NCBI RefSeq assembly: GCF_000403355.2
Contig: NZ_KE159646.1
Coordinates: 1,640,258-1,704,257 of the forward strand
DNA length: 64,000 nucleotides
DNA from: Adlercreutzia caecimuris B7
GTDB taxonomy: Bacteria; Actinomycetota; Coriobacteriia; Coriobacteriales; Eggerthellaceae
Reading direction: 5' to 3'
Of this stretch, positions 3,447 to 8,768 are shown in pieces. The notes below the pieces were generated by a model. It did no database searches. It was not told the DNA's origin and saw only the letters and a list, made by a program, of their open reading frames with translations. Position numbers and translations under genes: made by a program. Each line of letters begins with the position of its first letter. Within the stretch, counting starts at the first letter, position 1.

Positions 3447-4925
3447 GTGCTGAAGACCATCACACTGACGCTGGACGTGGAGAAGGGCGACGACCGCTTC
3501 GCCACACTGGACGAGCGCATCGAGCTGCGCCAGGGCGACGCGCTGGCCTACGCCCTGGAGGTGAGCCTGCGCGAGAAGTCCGAGGTCATCGATCTCACGG
3601 GCAAGGCAGTGCGGTTCTACTGCCAGCTCCCCGACGGGTCCGTGGCCATCGACGGCGGCCACGTGAGCGTCCCGTCCCCCCAGGACGGCGTCATCCGCTA
3701 TGAGATACCGCCCGAGATCACGCAGACGGCCGGCAACATCGACATGGCCTACTTCCGCATCACCGACGAGGACCCGGAGTCGCGCTGGTCGGCATCGACC
3801 CCGAACATCCCCCTGAGCATCCGGCGCGGCATCGCCATAAAGCTGCGCGACGGCGACTACTTCCCCGAGTTCGACGCCGCCCTGGCCGACCTTGAGGCCT
3901 CGCGTGTCGCCTACGAGCAGGCCGAGGACGCGAGGCAGACCGCCGAGGCGGCGCGGGCCACGGCGGAGGAGGCGCGGGCGGCGGCCGAGCTGCTGCGCCT
4001 GACCGCCGAGGAGGGCCGCGACGCGGCGGAGGCCGAGCGGCTCGCCGCCGAGCTGGAGCGCGGCGCCGCCGAGCTCGACCGCCTCGCGGCCGAGGAGGAG
4101 CGAGAGGCCGCCGAGGAGGACCGGGCCCTGGCCGAGCTGGGCCGAGAGGAGGCCGAGGCCTACCGCCGGGCGAAGTTCGCCGAGATCGAGGAGCTTGCCG
4201 ACGGCCTGCTGTACTACTTCTGCGCCGACGGCGAGTACGATCCCGATACGCGTCACCCGATCATCGCCGAGCCGCACGCCGGCACGCACTACCTCACTCC
4301 CGCATCGCACCCGACCGAGAACAACCACTGGGACGAGTGGCTGTGGGACGCCGCGGGCCAGCGGTGGGAGGGATACGGCTCCCAGGACGTGGTCATCGAC
4401 CCCATGACGGTGGACCAGGCAGAGGCCCTGTTCGGCGGATCCGAGGCCGATGGAGCGGAGGGCGAGCTCGTGACCCGCCGCATCCTGCGCTTCGTGCTGG
4501 GAAAGCTCGGCGGCATCTACGCCAAGCTGGTCCACACGCACAGCGGCGCAGACCTCACCGACGGCACCGTGACCGCCGCCAAGCTGGCGAGCGGTGCCGT
4601 CACTCAGGCCAAGATAGCTGACGGAAGCGTGAGCCTCGCGAAGTGCTATTCGACCCTCCGGGATTCCGTATCCCGAGCTGGAACATCGTCATCGACCATC
4701 CAATGGGCAAGGTTCGGAAAGATCGTCGTTATTGCCGGAAGGTGCGTCGCCACGAGCGAGTCGAACGTCACTGTTCTGACCCTGCCGGCGGGGTGTCGGC
4801 CGGGCGTGCATGCGGAAGCGCCGACGGTCACTGGTGGTTACGCCGGTGCCAATACTGACGGAACCGTCGTAGTCCACGCAAAGCCAGGGAACAACTTCTT
4901 CACGCTGTGCTTCCCGACGGCTTAG
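3447..4925 (+). CDS. Tail fibre/receptor-binding protein, expressed form of a shufflon
   Basis: GTG start at 3447 with AGGAGG at 3436-3441; 492 residues. Residues 1-130 resemble the N-terminal domain of baseplate upper (BppU-type) proteins. Residues about 148-248 are an uninterrupted coiled coil of A/E/R repeats. Residues about 355-400 have HTHSGADLTDG followed by three repeats of the form TVTAAKLASG, usual in tail-fibre shafts. A recombination site (core 4663-4674) is translated as S407-V408-S409. Everything after it, the last 83 residues, is cassette 1. Four silent cassettes downstream start with the same site in the same frame, so recombination would replace the C-terminus without disturbing the shaft. 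The C-terminus of such fibres is normally the receptor-binding part. Confidence 0.9.
   Translation: MLKTITLTLDVEKGDDRFATLDERIELRQGDALAYALEVSLREKSEVIDLTGKAVRFYCQLPDGSVAIDGGHVSVPSPQDGVIRYEIPPEITQTAGNIDMAYFRITDEDPESRWSASTPNIPLSIRRGIAIKLRDGDYFPEFDAALADLEASRVAYEQAEDARQTAEAARATAEEARAAAELLRLTAEEGRDAAEAERLAAELERGAAELDRLAAEEEREAAEEDRALAELGREEAEAYRRAKFAEIEELADGLLYYFCADGEYDPDTRHPIIAEPHAGTHYLTPASHPTENNHWDEWLWDAAGQRWEGYGSQDVVIDPMTVDQAEALFGGSEADGAEGELVTRRILRFVLGKLGGIYAKLVHTHSGADLTDGTVTAAKLASGAVTQAKIADGSVSLAKCYSTLRDSVSRAGTSSSTIQWARFGKIVVIAGRCVATSESNVTVLTLPAGCRPGVHAEAPTVTGGYAGANTDGTVVVHAKPGNNFFTLCFPTA
4661..4675 (+). repeat. Shufflon site 1 (inside the expressed tail-fibre gene)
   Basis: CGGGATTCCGTATCCCG contains a perfect six-base inverted arm (CGGGAT / ATCCCG) around the five bases TCCGT, the form expected for a tyrosine-recombinase core. 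It is read as Asp-Ser-Val-Ser-Arg in the fibre frame. Confidence 0.85.
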
Positions 4926-4940
4926 GCATTCCGTATCCCA
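4923..4940 (+). repeat. Shufflon site 2
   Basis: TAGGCATTCCGTATCCCA; its first three bases are the stop codon of cassette 1 and the remainder opens cassette 2 in frame as His-Ser-Val-Ser-His. Confidence 0.85.
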
Positions 4941-5199
4941 CAAACTCGTGACCGTGGGCGCAGTCGGCAGCATCGGCACGCTCTACCGGTGGGGCAACGT
5001 GTCGGCCGCGCTTCCCGGCGGCGTCAAGACCGCCGTAACGGCACGAAACCGGCTCACGTGCGAGGACAAGCCCGGCAACGAGGTGAACGCGCGCGTCGCG
5101 GACGGCACCCTTTACATCGAGAACCGCACCTCCGCCGCCGTGTCGATGCCCGCCTCAGGCGGGTACATCAGCGGGAGCGTGGTCTTCCCGATCTTGTAG
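4927..5199 (+). CDS. Silent tail-fibre C-terminal cassette 2
   Basis: Read in frame from site 2, this gives 86 residues after the shared Ser-Val-Ser, beginning HKLVTVGAVGSIGTLYRWGN and ending GSVVFPIL. There is no ribosome-binding site; the GTG at 4948 sits within the frame and is unlikely to be a real start. It would be expressed only when joined behind the shaft of the fibre at 3447-4660 by recombination at the shared site. The protein is beta-rich, as expected for a trimeric fibre tip. Confidence 0.75.
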   Translation, partial: HSVSHKLVTVGAVGSIGTLYRWGNVSAALPGGVKTAVTARNRLTCEDKPGNEVNARVADGTLYIENRTSAAVSMPASGGYISGSVVFPIL

Positions 5200-5214
5200 G
5201 CATTCCGTATCCCA
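5197..5214 (+). repeat. Shufflon site 3
   Basis: Identical 18-mer to site 2; the TAG is the stop of cassette 2 and the site opens cassette 3. Confidence 0.85.
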
Positions 5215-5479
5215 GATATATAAGGGCCAGAGAATTTATGCTAACACCAACCTGAACAGCGTGGTCAACCCGGGCATGTACAGGTGCATGCTGTACGCCG
5301 ATGCGGCCTCCCTGTCGAATACGCCGGTGAAGTGGCCGTTCAACTTGCTTGTGCTCGACCCGGTAGGCGGCTCGGGATACTGCACCCAGATACTCGCGCA
5401 TAACGGCGGCAGCGGCCTCGTCGGCCTGTACATCAGGGCCGAGTACGGCGGCACATGGAGCGAGTGGAAGCAGCTCTAG
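5201..5479 (+). CDS. Silent tail-fibre C-terminal cassette 3 (knob-type)
   Basis: In frame from site 3, giving 88 residues after Ser-Val-Ser and starting QIYKGQRIYANTNLNSVVNP. It has the look of a pyocin-knob-type fibre tip: an NPGMY start, an internal LVLDPVGG strand and a C-terminal aromatic end GGTWSEWKQL. No start codon with a ribosome-binding site is visible. It is tail-to-tail with cassette 4, and the two stop codons overlap at 5476-5479. Base composition is less GC-rich than the shaft, consistent with separate acquisition. Confidence 0.75.
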   Translation, partial: HSVSQIYKGQRIYANTNLNSVVNPGMYRCMLYADAASLSNTPVKWPFNLLVLDPVGGSGYCTQILAHNGGSGLVGLYIRAEYGGTWSEWKQL

Positions 5480-5781
5480 ACAGCGTAGGAGTCGTGGAAC
5501 CGGTACGACGTGCCCGTGGTGCCCCCGTGCACCCTGATGCGGCCGGCATCTATGGCGAGCACGCCCGCCGGCGTCTCGCAGTAGACGATTCCGCCCTTCG
5601 GAGTCGGCAGCGCGCTGCTCGACATCAGGTGCGTGTACTCCGACGCCGTGTGTGCGTACACGCATTCGAGCAGGCCCGAGATGTGGGCCGTATGCCCGTC
5701 AACGTATATTCTGACCTGGCCGATCCTGTGGGTCGAGTTCGCGGTGTCCGGGACGACCGCATCTTTCTGGGATACGGAATG
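5476..5781 (-). CDS. Silent tail-fibre C-terminal cassette 4 (inverted)
   Basis: On the minus strand, in frame from site 4, giving 97 residues after Ser-Val-Ser: it begins QKDAVVPDTANSTHRIGQVR and ends SYRFHDSYAV. Inversion between site 1 and site 4 (a 1.1-kb segment) would place it directly behind the fibre shaft. No independent translation start is visible. Confidence 0.75.
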   Translation of the reverse strand, partial: HSVSQKDAVVPDTANSTHRIGQVRIYVDGHTAHISGLLECVYAHTASEYTHLMSSSALPTPKGGIVYCETPAGVLAIDAGRIRVHGGTTGTSYRFHDSYAV

Positions 5782-5785
5782 CCTA
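5768..5785 (-). repeat. Shufflon site 4 (inverted)
   Basis: The same 18-mer on the minus strand; the TAG is the stop of cassette 5 and the site opens cassette 4 leftward. Confidence 0.85.
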
Positions 5786-5968
5786 GGCAGCCCTGAATAT
5801 CGCCTTCGTCTGACCACTAGGTGAGTTAGTCCCCGACACTGCCGGCAAGGTCGCGGACGGCTTCACGCAGTCGCCTTGGTTGAGGGCCGCAACGTTGACG
5901 ACCACAGACTTCTGCACAAATAACGTCTTCGAATTTGCGCGGATAGACGTGGCTTGGGATACGGAATC
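5783..5968 (-). CDS. Silent tail-fibre C-terminal cassette 5 (inverted)
   Basis: On the minus strand, in frame from site 5, 57 residues after Ser-Val-Ser: it begins QATSIRANSKTLFVQKSVVV and ends QTKAIFRAA. Its stop codon forms the start of site 4. It is the shortest cassette. Inversion between sites 1 and 5 (a 1.3-kb segment) would fuse it to the shaft. Confidence 0.75.
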   Translation of the reverse strand, partial: DSVSQATSIRANSKTLFVQKSVVVNVAALNQGDCVKPSATLPAVSGTNSPSGQTKAIFRAA

Positions 5969-5973
5969 ACCTA
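5955..5973 (-). repeat. Shufflon site 5 (inverted), abutting the recombinase stop
   Basis: TAGGTGATTCCGTATCCCA on the minus strand. The TAG is the stop codon of the tyrosine recombinase gene and the site opens cassette 5. It differs from sites 2-4 by GTG in place of GC before the core. Confidence 0.85.
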
Positions 5974-6948
5974 GGCAGCCGCAGGCAATGTCTCTGGGAA
6001 GGCCGGCGCGAGGACGATGCCCTTGTACATGTCGTCGCTCGTCTTGCCGAGCAGCCGCCTGGACACCCTGCGCTGCGCCCTGGTGACGGCGGCGCGCGTC
6101 AGGGCGTAGTAATACCTGTAGCTGGTGCCTACGTTGGCGTGGCCGAGCATCGATGCCACCAGCTCGATGGTAACGCCGGACTGGGCGGCGATGGTGGCCC
6201 AGGTGTGCCTGAGGTTCTTCATGGTCACCCGTGGCAATCTGTGCTGCTTTATCCACCGCTGAATGCGGTACGTGACCTGCCCCGGCTTCATCCCGCCGAT
6301 GATGCGGCCCCTCGGGCGGCCCCGATCCACCCATACCTGGTGCAGTCGGTCGAGCGCCCAGGGCGGCAGATACAGGTCGCGCTCTCCCTTAGCGGTCTTA
6401 GTCGGCCACTCGTTGAGCCCGTCGCTGGCGAGCTGCAAGGTGGCGCGGATGGGCACCAGCCCCGTGCGCCAGTTGATCTGCTCCCACCTGATCGCGTAGC
6501 TCTCCCCGGGGCGCAGGCCCAGGGCCGCGCTCAGGACGAACGTCGGCTCGCATTCGCATCCGACCATGCCACGGATCAGGCGCTTCATCCGGCGATGCGT
6601 CAGCGTCTCAGGCTTGTAGGCGGGGACGCGCGGCTTCTCGACGTGCTGGGTCGGGTCGTACACGCGCATCTTCCACTTGGCGAGCGCCCATCTGACGATC
6701 TGCCTCAGGCACTTGTAGGCCTTCCAGGCCCCGCCGGGGCCTGCGTCGGTCTTGGCCAGATCGTCCACCCATGCCTGCACGTCATCCGGCTCGATCTCGG
6801 CGATGGCCATGCCTCCCCAGCGGGGCGCGACGTAGAGCCGGATGCTGCTCTCGTAGCCGTCGCACGTGTTGGTGCGCCTCCGCTGGCGCTTGGCCGGCAG
6901 GTAGTGGCTCCAGGCGATCTCTCCGATGGTCAATGTCACGGGGTTCAT
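5971..6948 (-). CDS. Tyrosine recombinase, probable shufflon recombinase
   Basis: ATG at 6948 with AGAGGAGACCCC just upstream; 325 residues. The N-terminal SAM-like DNA-binding domain spans about residues 5-105 and the catalytic domain about 112-290. Catalytic residues are visible: R146 (GLRPGES), a lysine at 184 or 187 (PTKTAKGERD), R247-H248 in KNLRHTW (the usual first histidine of this box is lysine), H270 (LGHANVG) and nucleophile Y279. The stop TAG belongs to recombination site 5, which places the enzyme next to the cassettes as Rci is in R64. The true prophage integrase would normally be at the far left end. It could instead, or also, catalyse prophage integration at the tRNA-Val 1.7 kb away. 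Confidence 0.85.
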   Translation of the reverse strand: MNPVTLTIGEIAWSHYLPAKRQRRRTNTCDGYESSIRLYVAPRWGGMAIAEIEPDDVQAWVDDLAKTDAGPGGAWKAYKCLRQIVRWALAKWKMRVYDPTQHVEKPRVPAYKPETLTHRRMKRLIRGMVGCECEPTFVLSAALGLRPGESYAIRWEQINWRTGLVPIRATLQLASDGLNEWPTKTAKGERDLYLPPWALDRLHQVWVDRGRPRGRIIGGMKPGQVTYRIQRWIKQHRLPRVTMKNLRHTWATIAAQSGVTIELVASMLGHANVGTSYRYYYALTRAAVTRAQRRVSRRLLGKTSDDMYKGIVLAPAFPETLPAAA

Positions 6949-8693: not shown

Positions 8694-8768
8694 TGGTGGT
8701 CGCGGAGGGATTTGAACCCCCGACCTTGTGCTTGTAAGGCACCTGCGCTCCCGCTGCGCCACGCGACC
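8694..8768 (-). tRNA. tRNA-Val (anticodon TAC)
   Basis: Cloverleaf on the minus strand: seven-base acceptor GGTCGCG/CGCGACC, D arm GCGC...GCGC, anticodon loop CTTACAA (anticodon TAC, reads GUA), T arm GGGGG-TTCAAAT-CCCTC, discriminator A and encoded CCA. Its 3' end faces the prophage, the usual orientation for a tRNA used as attachment site. Confidence 0.92.

Follow-up and report, generated by a model that had tools for sequence, protein, structure and literature searches.

We analyzed a 64,000-nucleotide stretch of Adlercreutzia caecimuris B7 (contig NZ_KE159646.1; genome of 2,955,616 bp), hereafter called the window, in which a phage tail-protein gene, an array of alternative C-terminal cassettes and a tyrosine recombinase gene lie side by side and form a candidate shufflon of the Rin type. 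The constant part of the tail protein, here termed the shaft (Rc in Rin terms), occupies positions 3447..4664 on the plus strand. It carries a BppU_N domain at residues 6-149 (Pfam PF10651, E 2.5e-14) followed by heptad coiled-coil-like repeats, contains 21-nt repeats at 3899-4157, and matches a PHROG minor tail protein (E 1.2e-19). The initial annotation, made from the DNA letters, called this protein a tail fibre. It is indeed a tail protein, but its domain content suggests that a BppU-like baseplate or receptor-binding protein would be the more fitting description.

Five exact copies of a 12-bp core, ATTCCGTATCCC (ATT-CCGTA-TCCC), occur within 1.3 kb, three pointing rightward and two leftward, as the initial annotation had described. 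Site 1, the shaft site, spans 4660..4674 with its core at 4663-4674, and is followed on the plus strand by site 2 (4928..4939) and site 3 (5202..5213); site 4 (5769..5780) and the terminal site 5 (5956..5967) lie on the minus strand. These are the only copies in the genome, all of them within 4663-5967. Base composition predicts 0.18 copies genome-wide, and a reversed control pattern has none in 2,955,616 bp, which rules out chance repeats. The stretch common to all five sites is limited to the 12 bp, and the flanks differ. Site 1 is a full dyad (GGGAT-TCCGT-ATCCC, extending to CGGGAT-TCCGT-ATCCCG as first noted), and none of the other four, with left arms GGC, GGC, GGC and GTG, forms one.

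Each core is read as T-TCC-GTA-TCC, so that S-V-S opens every cassette in the same frame throughout. The junction between shaft and cassette falls at S407-V408-S409 in a 492-residue reading, the point at which exchange had been proposed. A different in-frame cassette follows each core, and the predicted lengths after S-V-S were borne out (83, 86, 88, 97 and 57 residues in site order). Counted from SVS, cassette A (4665..4925, plus strand) has 86 residues and is fused to the shaft, which makes it the expressed state by sequence. Cassettes B (4930..5199, plus; 89 residues), C (5204..5479, plus; 91 residues), D (5476..5778, minus; 100 residues) and E (5783..5965, minus; 60 residues plus stop) are silent and have no start codon of their own at the core. 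All five frames are open and stop at the next site, except that C and D converge on a single CTAG with overlapping stops (5476-5479). Cassette C matches PHROG 3971 (unknown function; E 2.3e-9). No pair of window cassettes was listed in an all-against-all comparison at E 1e-6 and >55% identity, nor in a smaller comparison at E 1e-3. By computation, 48 arrangements are reachable through inversion alone at the five sites, and any cassette can be brought behind the shaft, with one step needed for D or E and two for B or C.

The initial annotation had expected a tyrosine recombinase from the dyad of site 1 and named no gene; such a gene adjoins site 5. It occupies 5971..6948 on the minus strand as an intact open reading frame of 325 residues, with its stop codon 3 bp from the site. 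The protein has a Phage_integrase catalytic domain at residues 140-283 (PF00589, E 1e-10), a family assignment that rules out a serine invertase. Its SAM-like core-binding domain (PF14659) begins at residue 14 and therefore leaves no N-terminal arm-binding domain. Its profile can be aligned to structures of the XerA and XerD types, and R146, K184, R247, H270 and Y280 are invariant in 16/16 aligned relatives; by the motifs of the family, these five are probably the catalytic residues, with K244 at the position of the XerD box II histidine. We infer that this recombinase acts on the five sites, and very probably it flips the DNA between them to swap cassettes.

PHROGs and public annotation label such proteins integrase, and it might be argued that the adjacent recombinase integrates the phage while the repeats are incidental. 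We consider this extremely improbable. The prophage is 36.4 kb long and lies in tRNA-Val, with a 26-bp attachment (att) repeat at its ends: attR at 8694..8719 (no strand assigned) is the end of the tRNA-Val gene (8694-8768, minus), and the other copy is at G000:C1:1612579. Beside that other copy, at the opposite end of the prophage and 33 kb away, a second recombinase of 406 residues (C1:1612682-1613902) has its SAM-like domain from residue 103 rather than 14, that is, about 100 extra N-terminal residues. This separate integrase beside the att repeat contradicts an integrase role for the shufflon-side protein; moreover, the att repeat lacks the core, and the cores are confined to the shufflon. 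The host element has genes for terminase, head and tail proteins, RecT-like and DnaC-like proteins, a methyltransferase, a holin and an endolysin. It is best explained as the prophage of a temperate, siphovirus-like phage in a genome of the genus Adlercreutzia.

What the cassettes encode was approached through cassette A. An AlphaFold2 model built from it and 14 homologous cassettes is all-beta (mean predicted local distance difference test score 91.4), in agreement with the beta-rich character assigned to it at first. The best Foldseek rows from the PDB are the receptor-binding proteins of TP901-1 and p2 (E 0.009-0.06). In VIA-align, the model was matched to Listeria phage PSA gp15 (Z 8.3, root-mean-square deviation 2.5, 81 aligned), TP901-1 (Z 7.5, 2.7, 79 aligned) and p2 (Z 7.4, 2.6, 79 aligned), although Z values below 8 may reflect a common arrangement. 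Rows 1-17 are all phage tail or receptor-binding structures, and unrelated rows have Z ≤6.0. In BFVD, the top match carries the annotation receptor-binding protein (E 4.9e-5), and 11 rows have E ≤0.001. Cassette A is thus predicted, on its model, to fold like phage receptor-binding heads. Sequence searches against solved structures gave nothing significant for cassette C (best E 0.32; R2 pyocin E 0.8) or for the whole protein.

The initial annotation had asked whether the cores are ever breakpoints in relatives, and three independent signs in relatives indicate that they are. The viral contig L035 encodes a recombinase 98% identical to that of the window, but its array reads shaft-A-D><C-F-G-H-B-recombinase and that of the window shaft-A-B-C><D-E-recombinase. 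Window 5197-5792 aligns with L035 in reverse over 596 bp (94.1%), cassette B also aligns in reverse (95%) and has moved, and the flanks are collinear (shaft 72.9%, recombinase 93.3%). A single inversion between sites 2 and 5 yields both changes, cassette gain and loss aside. Judged by these alignments, L035 differs from the window by an inversion bounded at cores. Cassettes C and D are inverted in a further contig, L039, as well. As a second sign, L035 (from 8024) and L039 (from 6984) are identical over 10.1 kb (pieces of 4952 and 5441 bp); the identity ends at the first base of a core, beyond which the sequences differ, and the two recombinases are 71% identical in DNA. A possible reading of this junction is that the two phages traded genome arms at a site of the shufflon. 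Both contigs are metagenomic and the junction may be chimeric, yet a 12-bp repeat is too short to confuse assembly at the usual k-mer sizes. Separately, cassette E (window 5783-5827) and cassette F of L035 are unrelated apart from their identical final 15 residues, which looks as if cassettes recombine internally too.

The mosaic relationship of these phages, including the 10.1 kb of identity that breaks off at a core, could also be taken to mean that the core repeats arise from homologous recombination or gene conversion, with no dedicated recombinase. However, homologous recombination would have little to work with in a 12-bp repeat, the flanks show no homogenisation, and the cores change in concert within a locus yet remain next to a recombinase gene, so that we regard this explanation as very improbable.

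The third sign comes from G004, a genome that we take to be A. muris DSM 29508, where the core ATTCGCTGTCCC occurs eight times on four contigs. On each of these contigs (4/4), an end lies 126-127 bp from a core (chance for 4 of 8 such ends, 3e-7), as an assembly graph with k=127 that forks at the core would give. Contigs C10 and C17 have their terminal 127-mer in common, and one cassette, X, is joined to the shaft on C17 and to the recombinase-side core on C10; the terminal 127-mer of C14 recurs inside C30 with a different continuation. Elsewhere, two contig ends of G012 lie at distances of 0 and 3 bp from a core, C32 of G037 ends 1 bp from one, and C5 and C26 of G034 end 127 bp from one, with no shared ends between the two. 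In total, there are nine such contig ends in 4/19 genomes with fetched loci. Forks of this kind imply that the reads give a cassette more than a single neighbour, through inversion or through duplicated cassettes.

A. muris (L048, L049, L104 and L105) has two shafts and two recombinases of the Rin type, whose identities to that of the window are 90% and 76%. Both of its shufflons use ATTCGCTGTCCC, and with a shared core the two prophages might exchange cassettes. At L105 1604-1874 (G004:C30 30603-30873), the end of a cassette and a core are followed by the start of the same cassette, which would represent a cassette repeated in tandem, a circle formed by recombination between direct sites, or a loop in the assembly. 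A genome-contig search with the recombinase returned A. muris only, and tblastn of a phage collection (177 records) found no relative at ≥60% identity. In L050 (6749-7700) and L069 (2516-3765), one cassette is assembled at both array ends in opposite orientations.

Several observations weigh against an active head-swapping system. Foldseek gave no PDB match for cassette A at E ≤0.001 (best 9.2e-3), and Pfam scans of 87/109 distinct listed cassettes hit five families with one member each. In the other 15/19 genomes the array, where found, lies inside a contig, and the assembly forks could reflect duplicated cassettes, as in L050 and L069, as well as inversion. The initial annotation had also proposed looking in related genomes for the same shaft joined to different cassettes. 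None was found, because cassette A or a homologue stands behind the shaft in all three arrays that have it (the window, L035 and L039); a viral-contig search with the shaft returned one contig (L099) that covers residues 1-180 only and adds no new shaft-cassette junction. Flipping in this strain is itself a prediction from sequence. These points leave room for a fossil shufflon, an array built by recombination whose present copy has stopped flipping and is locked on cassette A. In line with that idea, the shaft and cassette A have diverged together from L035 (72.9% in DNA), and the recombinase and cassettes B, C and D have diverged less (93-95%), which would fit a cassette A tied permanently to the shaft. 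Nevertheless, the recombinase frame is open and its key residues are invariant in 16/16 relatives, the five 12-mers are identical despite differing flanks, and every cassette frame is open with its stop at the next site, and we consider a fossil unlikely. We are highly confident that the locus is a Rin-type shufflon that swaps the C-terminal heads of a BppU-like baseplate protein through the adjacent recombinase acting on the core sites.

The multi-cassette shufflon at a tail-protein C-terminus in a coriobacterial prophage, as recognized at first, stands, but the accompanying statement that such a system was undescribed does not, as Rin shufflons have been published in PMC6109161 and PMC8778435. 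In PMC8778435 (2022), a Rin shufflon with the crossover repeat ttccgtat, TTCCGTAT, is reported from clade 1 prophages of Eggerthella lenta; shuffling was inferred there from comparison, and cassettes of the H-type lectin kind are described as common. That repeat equals the inner 8 bases of the window core. The two systems also have in common the class Coriobacteriia, a large constant gene and small variable genes in tandem next to a tyrosine recombinase, and an integrase at the opposite prophage end (PMC8778435). In contrast to the E. lenta system, with which we compare it by the published description, the present one belongs to another genus, and an H_lectin Pfam match was found in 1/87 scanned cassettes.

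The Rin type was described in prophages of Bifidobacterium breve and B. longum (PMC6109161, 2018), where inversions within rix were seen in lysogen and virion reads. The window has the same Rc-Rv-rin layout, an armless recombinase, and variable C-termini of a receptor-binding protein resembling TP901-1. The asymmetric 11-bp rix, TTCCCTAACCC, matches the window core at 9/11 bases and differs in the centre, and the Bifidobacterium constant gene resembles the receptor-binding protein of phage 1358, whereas that of the window has BppU_N (PMC6109161). The features that define the type are present here: an armless recombinase by the array, in-frame rix-like repeats, a protein with constant and variable parts, a separate integrase, and inversion within rix, the last between relatives (window versus L035). 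How Rin avoids deletion is left open in PMC6109161. For plasmid R64, site asymmetry has been proposed to limit Rci to inversions (PMC11852207). Like Rci/sfx, the window pairs multiple inversion by a tyrosine recombinase encoded beside the array with asymmetric sites of conserved centre and right arm and variable left arm. R64 switches a plasmid pilus adhesin through 31-bp sfx sites (7-bp spacer, 12-bp right arm; PMC11852207); by this site description, the window is set apart by its 12-bp core, its phage receptor-binding protein and a shaft site with a left arm. Phage host-range switching through inversion of a fibre end is shared with Min, Gin and Cin (as cited in PMC6109161), but these use serine recombinases and the window a tyrosine recombinase.

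At E 1e-60, relatives of the recombinase, the own genome included, are present in 10/138 family genomes and, by profile, in 17/396 class genomes. At 25/35 recombinase loci, one pattern search (≤1 mismatch to the commonest 12-mer, which would miss more divergent sites) found at least 3 cores (range 3-12), and most remaining loci have a core beside the recombinase. The patterns used genome-wide on G003 and G058 do not match the cores of these two genomes, whose arrays were taken from the stretches fetched; L063 (duplicate of L062), L064 (the L054 array), L066 (equal to L091) and L071-L073 were omitted. Two-site versions occur at L070, L094, L096 and L098. A core lies ≤27 bp from the recombinase stop at 30/34 non-duplicate loci; the exceptions are L038 (244 bp), L090 (420 bp), L048 (~245 bp to the nearest core) and L058, which has another repeat. 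Stops of co-directional cassettes fall -2 to +8 bp from the next core in 69/70 cases.

Within a locus, all cores are the same 12-mer at 22/25 loci, and those of L069, L089 and L090 vary at base 1 only. Between loci, the centre changes: besides ATT-CCGTA-TCCC we found ATT-CGCTG-TCCC, ATT-GCTTG-TCCC, ATT-CCTTG-TCCC (12 sites, L053), ATT-CCTTA-TCCC, ATT-CCATA-TCCC and ATT-CCAAA-TCCC, together with the variants AAT-CCGTA-TCCC and WTT-CCGTA-ACCC. Site centres thus appear to change in concert between loci, which is new as far as we searched. L038 and L039 have recombinases 93% identical with centres CGCTG versus CCGTA, which is what a centre matched between partner sites, and not read by the protein, would lead one to expect; this contrast is suggestive, and L039 may be recombinant. 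Among individual loci, the largest array met is that of L053 (G090:C1, contig positions 9509-11857), with 12 sites ATTCCTTGTCCC, 11 one way and 1 the other, and a recombinase 69% identical to that of the window. L058 (G005) has a more distant recombinase (35% identity) with six copies of AATCCCTATCACAG alongside and, by its layout, is probably a related shufflon with a different site. Bifidobacterium phage PMBT6 (L090, MK932884.1) has 3 cores and Siphoviridae sp. ctl617 (L089, OY725605.1) has 7, both with recombinases annotated as integrase; that of PMBT6 (31.4% identity) groups with the shufflon recombinases.

The left arm GGG sets the shaft site apart. It precedes the core in 17/17 shaft sites with >100 open codons and in 23/24 at a 60-codon limit, for which four contig-end loci were offered and from which L049 (not a shaft), L101 (short open stretch; also GGG) and L063 (duplicate) were removed. 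At non-shaft sites it is found in 4/96 (1/74 inner, 3/22 terminal; counted by hand, with four shaft sites moved out of the inner list). The difference is large (Fisher 1.5e-19), although such probabilities are overstated owing to kinship among the loci (L035 and L039 have a shaft in common, and L052 is close to L061). The arm codon is CGG in 11/11 arginines (0.164 in the same open frames) and GGG in 6/6 glycines (0.178), plus six tryptophans, and therefore the constraint seems to be on the DNA. Donor left arms, most often GTG, GGC and AGC, follow the stop codon of the previous cassette, which limits GGG there. Retention of the GGG left arm by the shaft site alone appears, as far as we searched, to be new; we found no published report of a shaft arm or of concerted centres in a search that excluded supplements and subscription journals. 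Taking these observations together, we tentatively propose, with rather less than even confidence, that the shaft site is a special acceptor with a second arm and the donors are one-armed, which would focus exchange on the shaft and avoid deletion; with a recombinase that tolerates different core centres, the centres of a locus would drift together and could insulate co-resident shufflons, and a shared centre would permit swaps of genome arms as in L035 and L039.

Overall, we provide a putative mechanism for head exchange in this prophage. Recombinase monomers would bind the invariant right arm of the 12-bp ATT-CCGTA-TCCC cores, and strand exchange would take place inside the core between opposed sites, with the five-base centre exchanged. 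Inversion would then replace the head behind the shaft at S407-V408-S409 with another of the five head domains, which is workable because all cores are in the same frame and the cassettes stop at the next site or, for C and D, where the two overlap. One-armed donor sites may prevent deletion, as site asymmetry has been proposed to do for Rci in R64. The heads presumably differ in receptor; if the five bind different cell-surface glycans, one lysogen would therefore release virions with differing receptor preferences, and a mixed host range may result.

Rin shufflons are spread through the phages of Coriobacteriia, from 2-site switches to a 12-site array. Their different centres and one conserved shaft arm make them a natural site series for studying inversion without deletion by an armless recombinase. 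Shufflons of this kind also account for the breaks that such prophages show in assemblies of short reads, and a single reference for the receptor-binding protein of a gut phage records one state among several.

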